Below, one piece after another: positions 1,870 through 8,142 of a DNA stretch of 8,142 bases. The notes under the pieces are model-generated. The model saw only the letters and a program-made list of their open reading frames with translations. It made no database searches and was not told the DNA's origin. The position numbers were made by a program, and so were the translations under genes. Each line of letters opens with the position of its first letter. Within the stretch, counting starts at the first letter, position 1. Origin of the DNA: Bacteroidales bacterium (GTDB taxonomy: Bacteria > Bacteroidota > Bacteroidia > Bacteroidales > UBA932); assembly GCA_017548805.1 (NCBI GenBank), contig JAFYZE010000303.1, positions 1 through 8,142 of the forward strand, read 5' to 3'.

Positions 1870-2556
1870 ATGCTTGTTGTATTGGAAGGTCTTGACGGCG
1901 CCGGCAAATCCACGCAGGTCAAGAAACTCAGAACCTATCTCGAGTCCGTCTGCGGCGGTCTCGAGTACATCCACTTCCCCCGTTATGACGCTCCCGTATA
2001 CGGAGACCTCATCAGCCGTTTCCTAAGGGGGGATTTCGGGTCCAACGACACCGTCCATCCCCAGCTCGTGGCCCTTCTCTTTGCGGAAGACAGGCACGGC
2101 GCGGCGGCGTACATCCGCGAGCGGTTGGAGCGCGGCGAGACAGTCCTCCTGGACCGGTACGTATACTCCAACATAGCATACCAGTGCGCCAAGCTCCATA
2201 CTGACGAGGAAGCGGAAGCTCTCCGCAAATGGATTTTCGACACCGAATATGGCGACTTCGGGCTTCCCAAGCCCGACCTCAACCTCTTCCTCGACGTCCC
2301 CATCGGCTTCGTCGAGGCCAACCTCGCCTCGCAGCGCGAGGGCGACGACCGCAGCTACCTCTCCGGAGGGCGTGACATACATGAGGCGGATATAGCATTC
2401 CAGAAACGCGTCAGGTCCATCTACCTCAGGCAGGCGGCCTTGGACAGCAGCTTCCGGGTCGTAGACTGCATGGACGAAAATGGTGCGATGCTCGGTCCCG
2501 AAGAGATATTCGGAAGGATCAGGGGCATAGTTGACAAATACTTGGAACGGATATGA
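1870..2556 (+). CDS. tmk: Thymidylate kinase (dTMP kinase)
   Basis: This cytoplasmic enzyme phosphorylates dTMP to dTDP with ATP, an essential step toward dTTP. The 228-residue protein has a P-loop GLDGAGKST at 7-15, the substrate-site FPR at 36-38, FAEDR at 71-75 and the DRY motif at 95-97 (DRYVYSNIAYQ). The acceptor/LID segment is at about 152-186, with Arg156, Arg161, GGRDIHEAD at 166-174 and FQKRVRSIYL. This LID, rich in Ser/Gly and containing an HEAD element, is of the type seen in Bacteroidota and eukaryote-like enzymes rather than the short E. coli form. The length is slightly above the usual 205-215. The start at 1870 places the P-loop strand at the N-terminus, as in the family, and follows the -7 box. 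It is the first gene of a three-gene cluster; its TGA overlaps the next ATG as ATGA, which suggests translational coupling to the membrane protein downstream. Confidence 0.95.
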   Translation: MLVVLEGLDGAGKSTQVKKLRTYLESVCGGLEYIHFPRYDAPVYGDLISRFLRGDFGSNDTVHPQLVALLFAEDRHGAAAYIRERLERGETVLLDRYVYSNIAYQCAKLHTDEEAEALRKWIFDTEYGDFGLPKPDLNLFLDVPIGFVEANLASQREGDDRSYLSGGRDIHEADIAFQKRVRSIYLRQAALDSSFRVVDCMDENGAMLGPEEIFGRIRGIVDKYLERI

Positions 2557-3746
2557 AAGGCTTTCACTTAGGATTGAGACGGCTATGCTCCATACTTCTG
2601 GGGCTGGTGTTCTTCATCGCGGGCATGCTCAAGCTCATGGACCCCGTAGGGGCCGGACTGGTGGTCGAGGAGTACCTCGAGTTCCTCCATTTCGGATGGC
2701 TTGCATTCGCCGCCAAAGGGCTTGGCGTAGCCCTGGCGCTGGTCGAAACCCTCACGGGCGCAGCGCTTATCGCCGGCGTATGGCGCAGGCAGACGGCCGC
2801 CATCGCCAGCATTCTCACGCTCGGCTTCACCTTCCTTACCCTTCTCCTTGTCATCTTCAACCCCGAGATGGACTGCGGATGCTTTGGAGAGGCCGTCCAC
2901 CTGACGCACATGCAGACCTTCCTCAAGAACCTCGTACTCTGCCTCCTGTGCGCCGGGGCCTTCCTCCCGGTCCGTGATTACGGAAGGAACCGCAAGTCCA
3001 AGGTCATCGCTTTCTGCCTTGTAGCAGTGACGGTGCTGCTGTTCACGGTGATGTCGCTCATCTCGGTCCCGCTCATGGACTTCACCGAATTCGCACCCGG
3101 AGCCTCGCTGGCCGCAAACGGCGATGAGGAGTACACGGACGGCGGCATCTCCCTCGGAGGAGAGAACGACACCAAACAGGAGTATTTCGTAATCTACGAG
3201 AAGAACGGCCAGGAAGGCGCGTTCACCCTCGACAACCTTCCCGACTCCACCTGGACCTTCGTCCGAGTGGAGAACATGGAGACGAGTATCTCCGACTACG
3301 AGAAGTCGATGCCGGTCTTCTACATCTCGGATACTGACGGCAATTATTACAACGACATGCTGATGGACGGGAAAGTCATGGTCCTGTCCATATACGACGT
3401 CCCCGGATTCAAGGACACCGGGCGCGCGGAGCAGTTCCTGCGCGACGCGGAGGTGGCGGGCTTCACCGCCATAGCCGTCGCGCGCGAGCCGGTCCCCGGG
3501 TTAAGCGCCTATCTCTCCGATTTCAAGAAAATCATCACTTTCAACCGCTCGAACGGCGGCGCGACCTACCTCGCCGACGGAGAAATCATATGCAAATGGC
3601 CGGTAAGGAGGCTTCCGGACTCGGAAGAGCTCTCCAAAGTCGCAGCACGCAATCCCATGGAACAGCTGGTCGGCAGGTCCTCCCGCCGGCGCATAGCTTT
3701 CCAGGGCGTCGTCCTATATTCCCTCGCTTTACTGCTAATCCTTTGA
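2553..3746 (+). CDS. DoxX/MauE-like membrane protein with C-terminal extracytoplasmic domain
   Basis: This 397-residue integral membrane protein has an N-terminal DoxX/MauE-like domain. Membrane segments are predicted at about 10-28, 47-73, 82-102, 122-140 and 149-173. The hallmark DCGCFG motif sits at 107-112 after the third segment. Residues about 175-378 form a soluble domain, followed by a basic patch RSSRRR (375-380) and a final hydrophobic stretch at 383-397. Within the soluble domain, GKVMVLSIYDVPG (273-285) through GEIICKWPVRRLPD (343-356) resembles a thioredoxin-like fold but lacks CxxC; Cys347 is its only cysteine. It most resembles a Bacteroidales family of DoxX-domain proteins (I believe NCBI labels it BT_3928 family; not verified here). 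DoxX and MauE relatives are linked to respiratory or thiol redox chemistry and disulfide formation, but the function of this family is not established. It overlaps tmk by ATGA and lies 4 nt before the protease gene. Confidence 0.8.
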   Translation: MKGFHLGLRRLCSILLGLVFFIAGMLKLMDPVGAGLVVEEYLEFLHFGWLAFAAKGLGVALALVETLTGAALIAGVWRRQTAAIASILTLGFTFLTLLLVIFNPEMDCGCFGEAVHLTHMQTFLKNLVLCLLCAGAFLPVRDYGRNRKSKVIAFCLVAVTVLLFTVMSLISVPLMDFTEFAPGASLAANGDEEYTDGGISLGGENDTKQEYFVIYEKNGQEGAFTLDNLPDSTWTFVRVENMETSISDYEKSMPVFYISDTDGNYYNDMLMDGKVMVLSIYDVPGFKDTGRAEQFLRDAEVAGFTAIAVAREPVPGLSAYLSDFKKIITFNRSNGGATYLADGEIICKWPVRRLPDSEELSKVAARNPMEQLVGRSSRRRIAFQGVVLYSLALLLIL

Positions 3747-3750
3747 TCCA

Positions 3751-4674
3751 ATGGCACATAGAAAAATCCAGAAGAACTACGAATTCTTCTCCAATTACGA
3801 TTACTATACCCCTGGTCCCGCAGGGATGTTTACCCTGCTTTTCCTCCTTCTGGCCGGCGCGCTTCTGGGAGGCCTCATCGCAGCTCCGTTCACGCTGTTC
3901 ATGAAGGACAGCCCCGATGCGGAGACTTATGCCATGCTCATCTCCTATCCGATCATGTTCATCCCGCCGATGATCTATGCTTCGTACAGGAGCCGGGGCA
4001 ATTCCTTTTTCGGAAAGGGATACAAACTCTCCAACAAGCACTACTCCCCTCTCGGGATTGCACTGTGTGCCGTGCTGGTGATCGTCGCCACCCTGGCCAC
4101 CTCATTCCTGTCCGATTCCGTCATCTCCCTCCTACCTCCGATGCCGGAGTGGCTTGAGAAGTGGCTTTCCAGCGTAACCCAGGGAAACCTCATTCTTAAT
4201 TTCCTGTGCGTCAGCATATTCGCACCTTTCTTCGAGGAGTGGCTATGCCGGGGCATGGTGCTGCGCGGGCTCCTGAATTACGAGCACAAGAACAAAGCCG
4301 GAGAGACAGTCAGGGGCTTGAAGCCGGTGTGGGCCATCGTCATCTCAGCCGCATTCTTCGCCCTGATCCATTTCAACTCCTATCAGGCCATCGCCGCGTT
4401 TGCCATGGGACTGGTCTTCGGATATGTATATTACAGGACAGGCTCTATCTGGCTCACGATGCTCATGCATTTCGCCAACAATACCTTTGCGCTGATACTG
4501 AGCAATATAGATTCGCTCAAGGACATCGACAGCATCGGGGAAGTCCTGCCGGCTCCCCTTTATTGGGCGATATTCGTATTCTGCATCGCCTTCTTGGTCT
4601 ATTTCGTCAAGAAATTCCTGGCTATCAAGCCCCTTGACAAGCAGGGAAGCTGCGCGGAGATCGTTTCTGAATAA
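3751..4674 (+). CDS. CPBP-family intramembrane glutamic endopeptidase (CAAX protease/Abi-like)
   Basis: This 307-residue multi-pass membrane protein belongs to the CPBP (CAAX protease and bacteriocin-processing, Rce1-like) family of intramembrane proteases. All three catalytic motifs are present: EEWLCR with Glu162, Glu163 and Arg167 (EExxxR); FALIH with Phe203 and His207 (FxxxH); and HFANN with His240 and Asn244 (HxxxN). About eight membrane segments are predicted, near 25-50, 62-78, 101-121, 147-161, 191-207, 211-228, 232-250 and 270-289. A soluble N-terminus rich in Tyr and Asn (residues 1-22) precedes them. Bacterial members process or degrade membrane peptides, serve bacteriocin immunity or have unknown substrates; the substrate here cannot be told. 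The gene follows the DoxX-like gene after 4 nt, so it is probably cotranscribed from the tmk promoter. Its last 16 codons overlap, on the opposite strand, the end of the nucleotidyltransferase gene. Confidence 0.88.
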   Translation: MAHRKIQKNYEFFSNYDYYTPGPAGMFTLLFLLLAGALLGGLIAAPFTLFMKDSPDAETYAMLISYPIMFIPPMIYASYRSRGNSFFGKGYKLSNKHYSPLGIALCAVLVIVATLATSFLSDSVISLLPPMPEWLEKWLSSVTQGNLILNFLCVSIFAPFFEEWLCRGMVLRGLLNYEHKNKAGETVRGLKPVWAIVISAAFFALIHFNSYQAIAAFAMGLVFGYVYYRTGSIWLTMLMHFANNTFALILSNIDSLKDIDSIGEVLPAPLYWAIFVFCIAFLVYFVKKFLAIKPLDKQGSCAEIVSE

Positions 4675-5395
4675 ACTCCTCGGCTAAGGCCAGGGTGTCC
4701 AGCTTGCCGACGTCGATCAGTTCGAGCGACGCCGGCTTGATGCCGCATATGGGATAACGGTCGCAGACCTTGAGATAGAAATCCATTATCGGGAAACGCT
4801 CCCCCATCCCCTCTGACTCCATCACTCCGAAAACGTCATCCGACATCTGGTGGATGCCGGAAAAAGCCAGCATCGTATACCCTGACGGATCGAGGCCGGG
4901 ATATGGAGAGCGAATCTCGCCGGTGGAGAGATTGGTCCATCCGACCAGACGCATGTCATTGTCGAAGAGCAGGTAACGCTGGGTCTTGCGGGGGCTGACG
5001 AGCAGCGAAGCCAGCGCGCCGGGACGCCAGGCGTCCATGAAGGCGCGGATGTCGAGGTCGGAAAGGATGTCCACGTTGTGGACGAGGAAACGGCCTTCGG
5101 GACTGAGGAGCAGGTCGCGGGCGTGGAAGATGCCGCCGCCTGTCTCCAGCAGGCGGTCCGATTCGTCGGACACCGATATCCTTACGCCGAAATCATTCTG
5201 CTCGAGATAGCTTATGATCTGGTCCGCGAAATGATGGACGTTGACGACGATGTCGTCGATGCCGGCAGCTTTCAGGCGGGTGATCACATGCTTCAGGAGA
5301 GGCTCGCCGCAGACGGGTACAAGCGCTTTGGGAATGGTGTCGGTAATGGGTTTCAGGCGGGTTCCGAGGCCGGCCGCGAAGATCATTGCTTTCAT
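4625..5395 (-). CDS. MurU-like sugar-1-phosphate nucleotidyltransferase
   Basis: This 256-residue cytoplasmic protein has the left-handed beta-helix-free nucleotidyltransferase fold of NDP-sugar pyrophosphorylases. The nucleotide-binding signature AAGLGTRLKPITDTIPKAL is at 7-25, with Arg13 and Lys23 in the usual places. LETGGGI at 83-89 matches the MurU/GlmU-like uracil-binding segment. VDI at 108-110 carries the metal-binding Asp109, and a second aspartate is at 228 in IDVGK. In Pseudomonas, MurU converts N-acetylmuramate-1-phosphate plus UTP to UDP-MurNAc, downstream of the kinase AmgK. The gene here directly follows an AmgK-like kinase with an ATGA overlap, which supports the same pathway. 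The sugar specificity (MurNAc, GlcNAc or another) is inferred, so no gene symbol is given. The last 16 residues, after the conserved EEFIQ, form a tail encoded entirely within the 50-nt overlap with the convergent protease gene. Confidence 0.85.
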   Translation of the reverse strand: MKAMIFAAGLGTRLKPITDTIPKALVPVCGEPLLKHVITRLKAAGIDDIVVNVHHFADQIISYLEQNDFGVRISVSDESDRLLETGGGIFHARDLLLSPEGRFLVHNVDILSDLDIRAFMDAWRPGALASLLVSPRKTQRYLLFDNDMRLVGWTNLSTGEIRSPYPGLDPSGYTMLAFSGIHQMSDDVFGVMESEGMGERFPIMDFYLKVCDRYPICGIKPASLELIDVGKLDTLALAEEFIQKRSPRSFPACQGA

Positions 5396-6807
5396 AGCGT
5401 CCGTTCGATTCCGAGTTCGCGATGATGGAGGTGCACCTTTACTCCGGGGCGGCCGGCGAGGTGCTCCGCAAGCTTCTGGGCGCTGTACGCCGAGCGGTGC
5501 TGGCCTCCGGTACAGCCGAACGACACCTGGATGTGCGTGAAACCGCGACTGACGAACCTGTCCACATGGGCGTCGACGAGCGGGAAGACATGCCCGAGGA
5601 AAGTGAATATCTCGCCGTCCTCCTCCAGGAAATCCTGCACCGGCTTGTCAAGCCCGGTCATGGTGCGGAAACGCTCATACTTGCCGGGGTTATGGACGGA
5701 ACGGCAGTCGAAGACATAGCCCCCGCCGTTGCCGGAAAGGTCCTCGGGTATCCCTTTCTTGTAAGAGAAACTATAGATATGCACATGCAGCAACCCGTCT
5801 GCCGGCTGAGGCAGGCCGGGGCCGTCCTGGGCGAGCCGCGCGAGGACGTCCGAAAGATATGGATAGCGTCCGAAAGGCTCGGCAAGGAGCTCCCTTAGAT
5901 TCTCCAGCGCATACGGGATGCTCTCGAGGAAGTGCGCACGCTTCTCGATACGCCCCCGGAAGCCGTATGCGCCCAGGACCTGGAGCGTGCGGAACAACAC
6001 GAAAGTGCGGAGCCGCTCGCGGAAGGCATCCCTGTCGACGGATATCAGCTTCTCCAGCGCATCGAGGTACGCGTCGACGAGGGCGCGCTTGAGATCCTCC
6101 GGATACCTGGCGCGCGCCTGCCATACGAACGACGCGAGATCGTATTCGAGCGGACCGCGGCGGCCTCCCTGGAAGTCGATGTACCATAGTTCTCCGTCGT
6201 GGATCATTATGTTCCTTGCCTGGAAATCCCTGTACATGAAAGCGTCAGGGACATCCTGCAGGAGATCGGCTTTCAGGCGCTCGAAATCGTCCTGAAGCAT
6301 CTCTTCGTTGAACTCCACGGAAGTGGGTTTGAGGAAGCAGTATTTGAAATAATTGAGGTCGAAGTCGACCATCCGTGCGTTGAAGGCCTCGGAAGGATAG
6401 CAGACGGAGAAGTCCAGCCCGCGGGCCCCTTCGACCTGGATCGAAGGCAGCTCGGAGACCGCGCGCAGCAGCAGGGCGCGATCGGCAGGGCCGTAGGCAC
6501 CGGTACTGCGCGCCTCCGCAAGGGCGTCATAGAGCAGACTGTCACCAAGGTCCTGCTGGAGGTAGCACATGCCGTCTTCACCGACTGCCAGCACCTCGGG
6601 GACGCGAAGACCCTTCGAGCGGAAATGCCGGGACAGGGCGATGAAAGCGCGGTTCTCGTCCAGGTCCGTCCCGTAGACCCCGATGAGCGATATATCGCCG
6701 GCTGTGAGCCGGAAATACCTCCTCCGGCTGCCGGACGGGGACAAGGCCAGGCATTTTTCTGCATCCTTGCCTGTATATGAGCGGAATAACGCTGTCAGAC
6801 GGTCCAT
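5392..6807 (-). CDS. AmgK-like sugar kinase fused to RapZ C-terminal domain
   Basis: This 471-residue two-domain protein starts with an aminoglycoside-phosphotransferase-fold kinase (about 1-325) like AmgK, the anomeric MurNAc/GlcNAc 1-kinase of wall recycling. Visible motifs are the nucleotide loop SGSRRRYFRL (25-34), LQQDLGD (83-89), the catalytic loop YRDFQARN (192-199) with catalytic Asp194 and Asn199, and the metal-binding IDFQGGRRGPLEYDLAS (210-226) with Asp211. A linker at about 326-338 leads to a RapZ/YvcJ C-terminal domain (339-465): HVHIYSFSYKKGIPED (341-356), YVFDCRSVHNP (364-374), MTGLDKPVQDFL (383-394) and FGCTGGQHRS (430-439). The N-terminal Walker-A P-loop domain of true RapZ is absent and replaced by the kinase. 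In E. coli RapZ this C-terminal domain binds glucosamine-6-phosphate and small RNA. The gene is first in an operon and overlaps the MurU-like gene by ATGA. Regulation of the kinase by an amino-sugar phosphate is my inference. Confidence 0.88.
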   Translation of the reverse strand: MDRLTALFRSYTGKDAEKCLALSPSGSRRRYFRLTAGDISLIGVYGTDLDENRAFIALSRHFRSKGLRVPEVLAVGEDGMCYLQQDLGDSLLYDALAEARSTGAYGPADRALLLRAVSELPSIQVEGARGLDFSVCYPSEAFNARMVDFDLNYFKYCFLKPTSVEFNEEMLQDDFERLKADLLQDVPDAFMYRDFQARNIMIHDGELWYIDFQGGRRGPLEYDLASFVWQARARYPEDLKRALVDAYLDALEKLISVDRDAFRERLRTFVLFRTLQVLGAYGFRGRIEKRAHFLESIPYALENLRELLAEPFGRYPYLSDVLARLAQDGPGLPQPADGLLHVHIYSFSYKKGIPEDLSGNGGGYVFDCRSVHNPGKYERFRTMTGLDKPVQDFLEEDGEIFTFLGHVFPLVDAHVDRFVSRGFTHIQVSFGCTGGQHRSAYSAQKLAEHLAGRPGVKVHLHHRELGIERTL

Positions 6808-6888: not shown

Positions 6889-8142
6889 ATGAAGAGTTTG
6901 CTTTCCAGATTTTGGCTCCCGGTCGCCGTGACCGCCATCGCAGCCGTCCACACCGTCGCTTCTGATCCCGGTGTAGACGCTCACATGGGCCTGTCCGGCA
7001 TCCCCGTCCCGGTGATCTCGGAGCGGCCCGACACCGTCATATATCCGCCCGACGGATACAGGCGCGGATGGACCGAGGAGGATTTCCGCATGGATGCCAA
7101 CCCACTGGAAGACTCTCTTTTCACGGATACAGACAGCCTCGTGGTCTCCGACTCCATCGCGGTCCTTGACACTCTGCCCAAACTCACTGCAAGGGACACC
7201 ATTCCAGTCCCGGATTCCCTCCGTTTCACGGACCCCTTCCGTTACAAGTACTATGTCGCCCTGCGCGACCGTCCCACCTACAACCTCGTCCGCGACTCGC
7301 TCATAGCAGCCGGGGATTCGCTCGACTGGCCTGTGCTCGACTCGCTCTACCTGTCTGATTCCCTGCTCCGCGAGAAACTCGAATACGAGCGTTGGTACGC
7401 GGGGCTCTCCAAGGAGGAAAGGAAGAAACTCCGCATGGAGGAGCTCACCCAGCAGAAGATCGCCAAGATGAACCGCGACAAGGAGCGCAAGGACAGCCTC
7501 AAGGCGGCAAAGGACAGTATTCTCAAGAATACCCCCCGCATCCTGGAGACCTTCGCCTTCGCCGATTCGCTGCAATACAAGCGCATCATCAAGTGGACGC
7601 ACGAACAGGAGTTCCACAAGCTTGCGCTCGCGCCGAACGATACAGGATTCAACTACCGCTTCCACGACTATCCGTTCCTGAGGGAGGACGTCAATGCCAC
7701 ATGGCTCGGCGTAGCGGGATCGCCTGTGCAGTACTACAACTGGTTCAACCGCAAGTCCAAGGACAAGGTATCCTTCTACGAAGCCCTCGAGAGCTGGAGC
7801 CACACTCCCTCCGACGTGGTCATGTACAATACCAAGACCCCGTACACCGAGCTAGGCTATTTCGGAACTCTAATGGCCGGGACTGAAAGGGAGTCCGACA
7901 ACCTCCACCTTCTTACCACCCAGAACATCACGCCTGAACTCAACTTCACCCTCGCGTATGACCGTTTCGGAGGCGGAGGCATACTCAACAACGAGGCTAC
8001 GACCAACAAGAACACCCAGGTGACGGCCAATTATCTTGGCCGCCGTTACATGGCCCACGCCGGATACCTTTACAACGGCGTCAGCAGGACGGAGAACGGC
8101 GGTCTGAGGGATCTCGGCGGCATCAGGGACACCACCGTGAAC
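6889..8142 (+). CDS. Putative outer-membrane porin, N-terminal part (3' end outside window)
   Basis: A frame open from the ATG at 6889 to the window edge gives 418 residues without a stop. Residues 1-24 form a signal peptide (MKSLLSRF, a hydrophobic core and a likely cut after HTVA). Residues about 70-230 are a periplasmic extension with 13 Asp-Ser/Thr-Leu/Ile triplets. A highly charged Lys/Glu/Arg helix at 174-215 lies within this extension. From about 310 the sequence becomes beta-barrel-like: YNTKTPYTELGYFGT (313-327), HLLTTQNITPELNFTLAYD (340-358) and ANYLGRRYMAHAGYLYN (380-396), with alternating aromatic strands and Asn/Gly turns. This pattern fits the Bacteroidota putative porin family (Pfam Porin_10, from memory). 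Such proteins are outer-membrane barrels of largely unknown substrate. It has its own -7 box at 6869-6876 and is divergent from the wall-recycling operon. A 311-codon open frame on the opposite strand is a shadow. Confidence 0.85.
   Translation, partial: MKSLLSRFWLPVAVTAIAAVHTVASDPGVDAHMGLSGIPVPVISERPDTVIYPPDGYRRGWTEEDFRMDANPLEDSLFTDTDSLVVSDSIAVLDTLPKLTARDTIPVPDSLRFTDPFRYKYYVALRDRPTYNLVRDSLIAAGDSLDWPVLDSLYLSDSLLREKLEYERWYAGLSKEERKKLRMEELTQQKIAKMNRDKERKDSLKAAKDSILKNTPRILETFAFADSLQYKRIIKWTHEQEFHKLALAPNDTGFNYRFHDYPFLREDVNATWLGVAGSPVQYYNWFNRKSKDKVSFYEALESWSHTPSDVVMYNTKTPYTELGYFGTLMAGTERESDNLHLLTTQNITPELNFTLAYDRFGGGGILNNEATTNKNTQVTANYLGRRYMAHAGYLYNGVSRTENGGLRDLGGIRDTTVN

Follow-up and report, generated by a model that had tools for sequence, protein, structure and literature searches.

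The stretch of DNA analyzed here, referred to below as the window, spans 8,142 nucleotides of a gut-type Bacteroidales bacterium (assembly GCA_017548805.1, contig JAFYZE010000303.1), and its minus strand encodes an AmgK-like sugar kinase joined in one frame to the C-terminal domain of RapZ (RapZ_C), together with a MurU-like nucleotidyltransferase. A preliminary description made from the letters of the window had proposed such a same-frame fusion at 5392..6807, which was confirmed on the minus strand by the open reading frame (ORF) and by Pfam. The features concerned are as follows:

5392..6807, minus strand: AmgK-like kinase / RapZ_C fusion gene, 471 amino acids (ORF; Pfam APH and RapZ_C; PDB sequence matches; models)
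6052..6663, minus strand: APH kinase domain, residues 49-252, with motifs YRDFQARN and IDFQGG (Pfam match)
5413..5787, minus strand: RapZ C-terminal domain (PF22740), residues 341-465 (Pfam match)
5491..5514, minus strand: CX5RS loop C432-T-G-G-Q-H-R438-S439, corresponding to E. coli C247-S254 (alignment)
4625..5395, minus strand: MurU-like nucleotidyltransferase, 256 amino acids (ORF; NF045761 MurU; PF00483)

In the window, the start of the MurU-like gene overlaps the stop of the fusion gene by 4 bases. The fusion has an APH fold with intact catalytic motifs, as looked for in an AmgK, and residues R193, D194, F195, R198, N199 and D211 are invariant across the 15 aligned kinases. Within NCBIfam, AmgK is the top match of the kinase part, with 58 bits against the equivalog model NF045759, below its cut-off of 550; MurU is likewise the top match of the nucleotidyltransferase, with 122 bits (E 2.3e-35) against NF045761, below the cut-off of 250, and heptose and hexose nucleotidyltransferase models also match. 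The RapZ equivalog NF003828 matched the C-terminal half of the fusion only (95 bits, below the cut-off of 244). Indeed, the Pfam scan of the fusion gave APH and RapZ_C only, with neither the P-loop N-terminal domain of RapZ (PF03668) nor a HAD domain; with the HAD phosphatase MupP, function alone could be common. Altogether, the conserved pocket, the gene neighbours and the genome distribution suggest that the domain handles a phosphorylated sugar here, and not RNA.

Pocket and RNA-contact residues of RapZ_C

The fusion has in common with RapZ and YvcJ the C-terminal domain fold PF22740 (E. coli RapZ, PDB 5o5s, 5o5o, 8b0i). In contrast to E. coli RapZ, it is joined to a sugar kinase instead of a P-loop N-terminal domain, has lost several RNA-contact residues, carries Gly in place of H190 and has an extra Gly-rich insert. 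The C-terminal domain of E. coli RapZ binds glucosamine-6-phosphate (GlcN6P) (PMC9841335, PMC7073468), and the RapZ pocket was found to hold sulphate or malonate (PMC5737377); these and the other published statements below refer to excerpts of the cited papers.

The alignment comprised 105 RapZ_C domains, one from the window and the others from 104 loci, among which 3 encode free forms and two were fetched twice, together with 89 homologues of standalone length (120-150 residues, among 120 listed) and four canonical RapZ. In E. coli numbering, C247, T248, G249, G250, H252, R253 and S254 were unchanged in 4/4 canonical RapZ, in 89/89 standalone-length homologues, whose search needs short words in common, and in 105/105 rows from the loci, which were picked by a pattern containing the loop, part of this pattern having also served as probe of the genome-locus search; loci L086-L104 were obtained solely through the Pfam profile, and each of them has the loop. 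The canonical pocket residue H190 is replaced by Gly in 105/105 and 89/89 domains, including the window, where the equivalents of C247, T248, G249, H252 and R253 are retained and H190 is the only replacement. The aligned domains largely preserve the dimer strand YVFD. Position 191, an N-terminal to C-terminal domain contact, carries Lys or Arg in 104/105 as opposed to the W or Y of RapZ. In addition, a Gly-rich insert after E. coli position 176 (GGG in 105/105, GNGGG in 95) is absent from the four canonical RapZ and could adapt the pocket to a larger sugar. The loop of the fusion (C432, R438, S439) and of its homologues has the CX5R(S/T) form of cysteine phosphatases of the protein tyrosine phosphatase (PTP) type, although the residue before it is Gly in the fusion, compared to His in the HCX5R signature of tyrosine phosphatases (PMC6355987).

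The positions by which E. coli RapZ contacts RNA were conserved unequally. Among the 105 domains, a basic residue was found at position 238 in 0, at 270 in 0, at 251 in 8 and at 211 in 11, and at the tail positions 281, 282 and 283 in 10, 20 and 39, respectively; positions 170 (104), 184 (105) and 196 (84) stayed basic. The window domain is basic at 170, 184, 194, 196 and 283, and non-basic at 211, 238, 251, 270, 281 and 282. Note that three non-enteric RapZ likewise have no basic residue at position 270 and in parts of the tail, and that the RNA-binding region was described as limited to Enterobacteriaceae (PMC7073468). The lost contacts thus argue against an E. coli-type small RNA (sRNA) function, yet they are no special mark of the fusion. 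We consider it very improbable that, like RapZ, the fusion continues to bind an sRNA and to bring in a nuclease, since contact residues are lost and the RapZ N-terminal domain is absent from the protein and from the 9 genomes searched that carry fusion loci: the common domain, the basic K170, R184 and mostly R196, and the annotation 'RNase adapter RapZ' of two relatives in a plasmid collection (Bacteroides finegoldii, Parabacteroides distasonis) are outweighed by the mostly non-basic positions 211, 238, 251 and 270 and C-terminal KRK, and by Lys or Arg at position 191. The preliminary description had proposed a protein-level feedback replacing the sRNA circuit; an E. coli-type circuit is indeed unlikely here, for the reasons just given, whereas sensing, and GlcN6P as the ligand, are hypothetical.

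Kinase, RapZ_C and MurU as a three-part module

The expectation that the fusion occurs in other Bacteroidales was borne out, and the fusion is common there. All 8000/8000 scored candidates (those with the most words in common) were homologous to the fusion, both domains were present in 120/120 homologues listed, and a relative was encoded in at least 595 of 596 candidate stretches of a genome collection. The best 80 of these stretches were fetched as loci, and their titles are, with few exceptions, Bacteroidales, Bacteroidia or taxa inside these. The fusion is carried by metagenome-assembled genomes (MAGs) of Tannerella sp., the only Tannerella among the 120 matches listed, in which T. forsythia itself is unnamed. 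With regard to a feedback on GlmS in particular, T. forsythia is described as without glmS (PMC5790795). In line with the preliminary description, which knew of none, no experimental description of a kinase-RapZ_C fusion was found in the excerpts of the open-licence literature.

The initial set of loci, to which the genome collection contributed 80, had the fusion ORF in 83/83. In 74 of these 80, a MurU-like gene starts less than 300 bases downstream, often overlapping the fusion by a few bases as judged by the alignment start; for the other six, MurU lies in the same frame in two (L078, L079) and about 1.1 kb off in one, and was not found at 3/80 loci. The two single frames, each confirmed by Pfam to join a nucleotidyltransferase to kinase and RapZ_C within a single protein, are:

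L078:5962-8280, kinase-RapZ_C-MurU triple fusion, 773 codons
L079:5875-8256, kinase-RapZ_C-MurU triple fusion, 794 codons

Conversely, 20 of the first 148 genomes (see below) have RapZ_C, and 3 of these encode it as a free 133-135-residue protein whose gene lies between distinct kinase and MurU genes; G215 is a fourth such case. A search starting from the free form gave 1492 proteins of about 73 to 233 residues, with PF22740 in 120/120 listed, although some of the 1492 are probably fragments of fusions. In genome G185, a free RapZ_C (L119, about 5950-6330, minus strand) and a kinase (L120:4214-5191) are on separate contigs, possibly a binning effect, and MurU was not seen among the genes read beside this kinase. 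Kinase, RapZ_C and MurU are thus a three-part module, which is new here. The preliminary description had seen in the fusion a RapZ in which a sugar kinase took the place of the P-loop half; this is not supported, because free forms and triple fusions exist, and RapZ_C is a portable pathway part rather than only what is left of a replaced RapZ half.

Genome distribution of RapZ_C, AnmK and MurQ

AnmK makes the 6-phosphate of N-acetylmuramic acid (MurNAc), referred to as MurNAc-6P. We searched 247 Bacteroidota genomes (148 first, with 99 added later), and the p values given here ignore shared ancestry. AmgK-like kinases (E < 1e-10) were found in 81/247 genomes and AnmK in 170/247. The domain search across Bacteroidota suggested by the preliminary description showed RapZ_C in 27/247 genomes, with an AmgK-like kinase alongside in 27/27. 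AnmK was present in 17/27 genomes with kinase and RapZ_C, compared to 0/54 with the kinase alone (p 7e-11). Before the 99 genomes were added, we fixed the prediction that genomes with AmgK and AnmK have RapZ_C and that those with AmgK but no RapZ_C are without AnmK; it held in 3/3 and 24/24 of the added genomes, respectively. Among these 99, AnmK occurred in 3/7 genomes with RapZ_C (hence not in 4/7) versus 0/24 kinase genomes without it (p 0.008).

The combination of AnmK with MurQ was studied in the first 148 genomes (MurQ weak in 42, strong in 106), since MurQ scores cover only 7 of the 99 genomes added later. In the 103 AnmK-positive genomes of this set, RapZ_C was present in 6/6 without strong MurQ versus 8/97 with MurQ (p 2e-6). 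Note that G017, G100 and G215 have RapZ_C domains with 83-88% identity to one another, which are hence not independent, whereas other pairs compared were 43-59% identical.

AmgK-like kinases without RapZ_C displayed another environment in 10 loci examined from the 30 such genomes of the first 148, the other 44 being known by scores only. A MurU-like gene adjoins the kinase in 10/10, with no RapZ_C alongside; a NamZ-like gene lies next to MurU in 9/10 (the exception being G014), and a symporter-like gene follows NamZ in 8 of those 9 within the fetched stretch, NamZ being confirmed by Pfam at three loci and the symporter at one. The nine loci with NamZ, L106-L114 (e.g., L109:2602-6500), represent a second Bacteroidota cluster type, in which AmgK-like kinase, MurU-like enzyme and the exo-muramidase NamZ are accompanied, at eight of the nine, by a sodium symporter. 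They look like a route for import and activation of free MurNAc, which would be expected to give unphosphorylated MurNAc. They have adjacent AmgK-like and MurU-like genes in common with the fusion loci, but contain no RapZ_C and belong to genomes without AnmK. Among kinases above 240 bits, only that of G014 lacks RapZ_C; it belongs to the main class (L105:2084-3798) and has MurU adjacent, and the genome has neither RapZ_C nor AnmK.

Elsewhere in the window, a divergent gene upstream of the fusion (6889-8142) encodes a Porin_10 outer-membrane protein (PF14121) and extends past the window, and a gene for a MauE-type protein of the BT_3928 family (2553-3746, under the NCBIfam cut-off) adjoins a CAAX-type protease gene (3751-4674).

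Proposed role of RapZ_C in amino-sugar salvage

In Pseudomonas, the AmgK-MurU pathway uses the HAD phosphatase MupP as MurNAc-6P phosphatase (PMC5371407). The window has AmgK-like and MurU-like enzymes in common with this pathway, here in one operon and far under the equivalog cut-offs, and RapZ_C occupies the place where a MurNAc-6P phosphatase is needed. In the most economical mechanism, which appears quite possible and which we tentatively favour, RapZ_C would process a sugar 6-phosphate ahead of the kinase step, most probably as a phosphatase replacing MupP. The gene pair 6807-4625 (minus strand) would then form a salvage module for MurNAc or a close amino sugar, in which the RapZ_C pocket, through its CX5RS loop, would bind a sugar 6-phosphate supplied by AnmK or a MurK-type kinase and remove the 6-phosphate, the job of MupP in Pseudomonas. 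Judging from their families, the AmgK-like domain would subsequently phosphorylate the free sugar at C1, and the MurU-like enzyme would turn the sugar 1-phosphate into the uridine diphosphate (UDP)-sugar. Fusion and operon coupling would hold the unphosphorylated intermediate local.

Several published observations bear on such chemistry. Replacement of C247 by Ser in E. coli RapZ abolished function, which the authors called unexpected and a possible sign of catalysis, although the tested C247 variants also lost GlmZ binding; in crystals with GlcN6P, a likely transformed product was visible (PMC9841335). For YvcJ, the B. subtilis homologue of RapZ, both NTPase and phosphatase activities were described, and RNA binding was without evidence (PMC7525490). 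In the excerpts of the three RapZ papers searched, the word 'phosphatase' occurred in a reference title only. HpaP of Xanthomonas, probably a RapZ/YvcJ homologue because it is cited together with RapZ/YvcJ work, is mentioned without a sugar kinase in the short passages citing it. It is reportedly a virulence regulator, with ATPase and phosphatase activity according to a title, and Cui 2018 is said to have named a 'PTP loop' in it; if so, the loop idea would not be new for HpaP.

A number of points weigh against a phosphatase role. The fold searches (Foldseek, VIA) listed no significant match to a PTP-type or phosphatase fold, so the idea rests on the loop, the context and the papers, and not on the fold. 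AnmK is missing in 10/27 genomes with RapZ_C; a match to PF01869, perhaps of MurK or NagK type, was found in 10/10 of these when looked at post hoc (eight below 1e-20), but PF01869 matches below 1e-20 also occur in 6/30 kinase genomes without RapZ_C. AnmK alone was rejected as predictor of RapZ_C (14/20 versus 89/128, p 1.0, in 148 genomes), the association appearing solely among AmgK-bearing genomes. The statistics for AnmK and MurQ are uncorrected for ancestry, and these genomes may still hold a MupP-like HAD enzyme.

The main alternative, a serious one though to our mind somewhat less probable, is that RapZ_C binds GlcN6P or MurNAc-6P without turnover and tunes the fused kinase allosterically. 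It would agree with the binding of GlcN6P by the E. coli domain (in the published excerpts) and with the conserved pocket, and the largely kept YVFD strand would offer a route for dimer-based control. However, some genomes encode RapZ_C and the kinase as two neighbouring but separate proteins, and G185 has them on different contigs, while genomes with RapZ_C and AnmK but without MurQ still require MurNAc-6P to be dephosphorylated. A cysteine that cannot be replaced by serine is also odd for a pure sensor, with the reservation that the tested E. coli variants lost RNA binding as well. Overall, an enzyme acting on a sugar 6-phosphate would explain these genomes and the invariant CX5RS loop no less well than a feedback sensor would.

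The salvaged sugar could also be another one (GlcNAc, glucosamine or heptose), with RapZ_C acting on its 6-phosphate, which we regard as unlikely; this possibility overlaps the others, so that the likelihoods we assign sum to more than one. Scores below the AmgK and MurU equivalog cut-offs and the additional heptose and hexose nucleotidyltransferase matches would allow it, but AmgK and MurU remain the top matches, the distribution tracks AnmK and MurQ, and Tannerella sp. MAGs carry the fusion, T. forsythia (itself unnamed among the listed matches) being a MurNAc salvager in the literature excerpts. Quite unlikely, finally, is a scaffold in which RapZ_C serves only to dimerise the kinase and to bind MurU for channelling, with a relic pocket: the mostly kept dimer strand, the coupling to MurU and the triple fusions would suit it, but a relic pocket should drift, in contrast to the unchanged C, T, G, G, H, R and S in 89/89 standalone-length homologues.

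With more reserve than for the phosphatase role itself, RapZ_C could be at root a cysteine-based amino-sugar 6-phosphate phosphatase, which in much of the Bacteroidales, fused between AmgK and MurU, would supply the missing MupP step of MurNAc recycling and whose site E. coli RapZ would have repurposed as GlcN6P sensor and RNA clamp. Such an active-site origin would explain why the E. coli cysteine is not replaceable by serine.

RapZ is known for binding RNA and sensing a metabolite, and a large natural family with the RapZ pocket inside a metabolic pathway provides a direct handle on the role of this domain. If RapZ_C is a MurNAc-6P phosphatase, it would close a gap in the wall recycling of gut and oral bacteria and would point to a transition from enzyme to RNA regulator, and fusions now called 'RNase adapter RapZ' would be misnamed.
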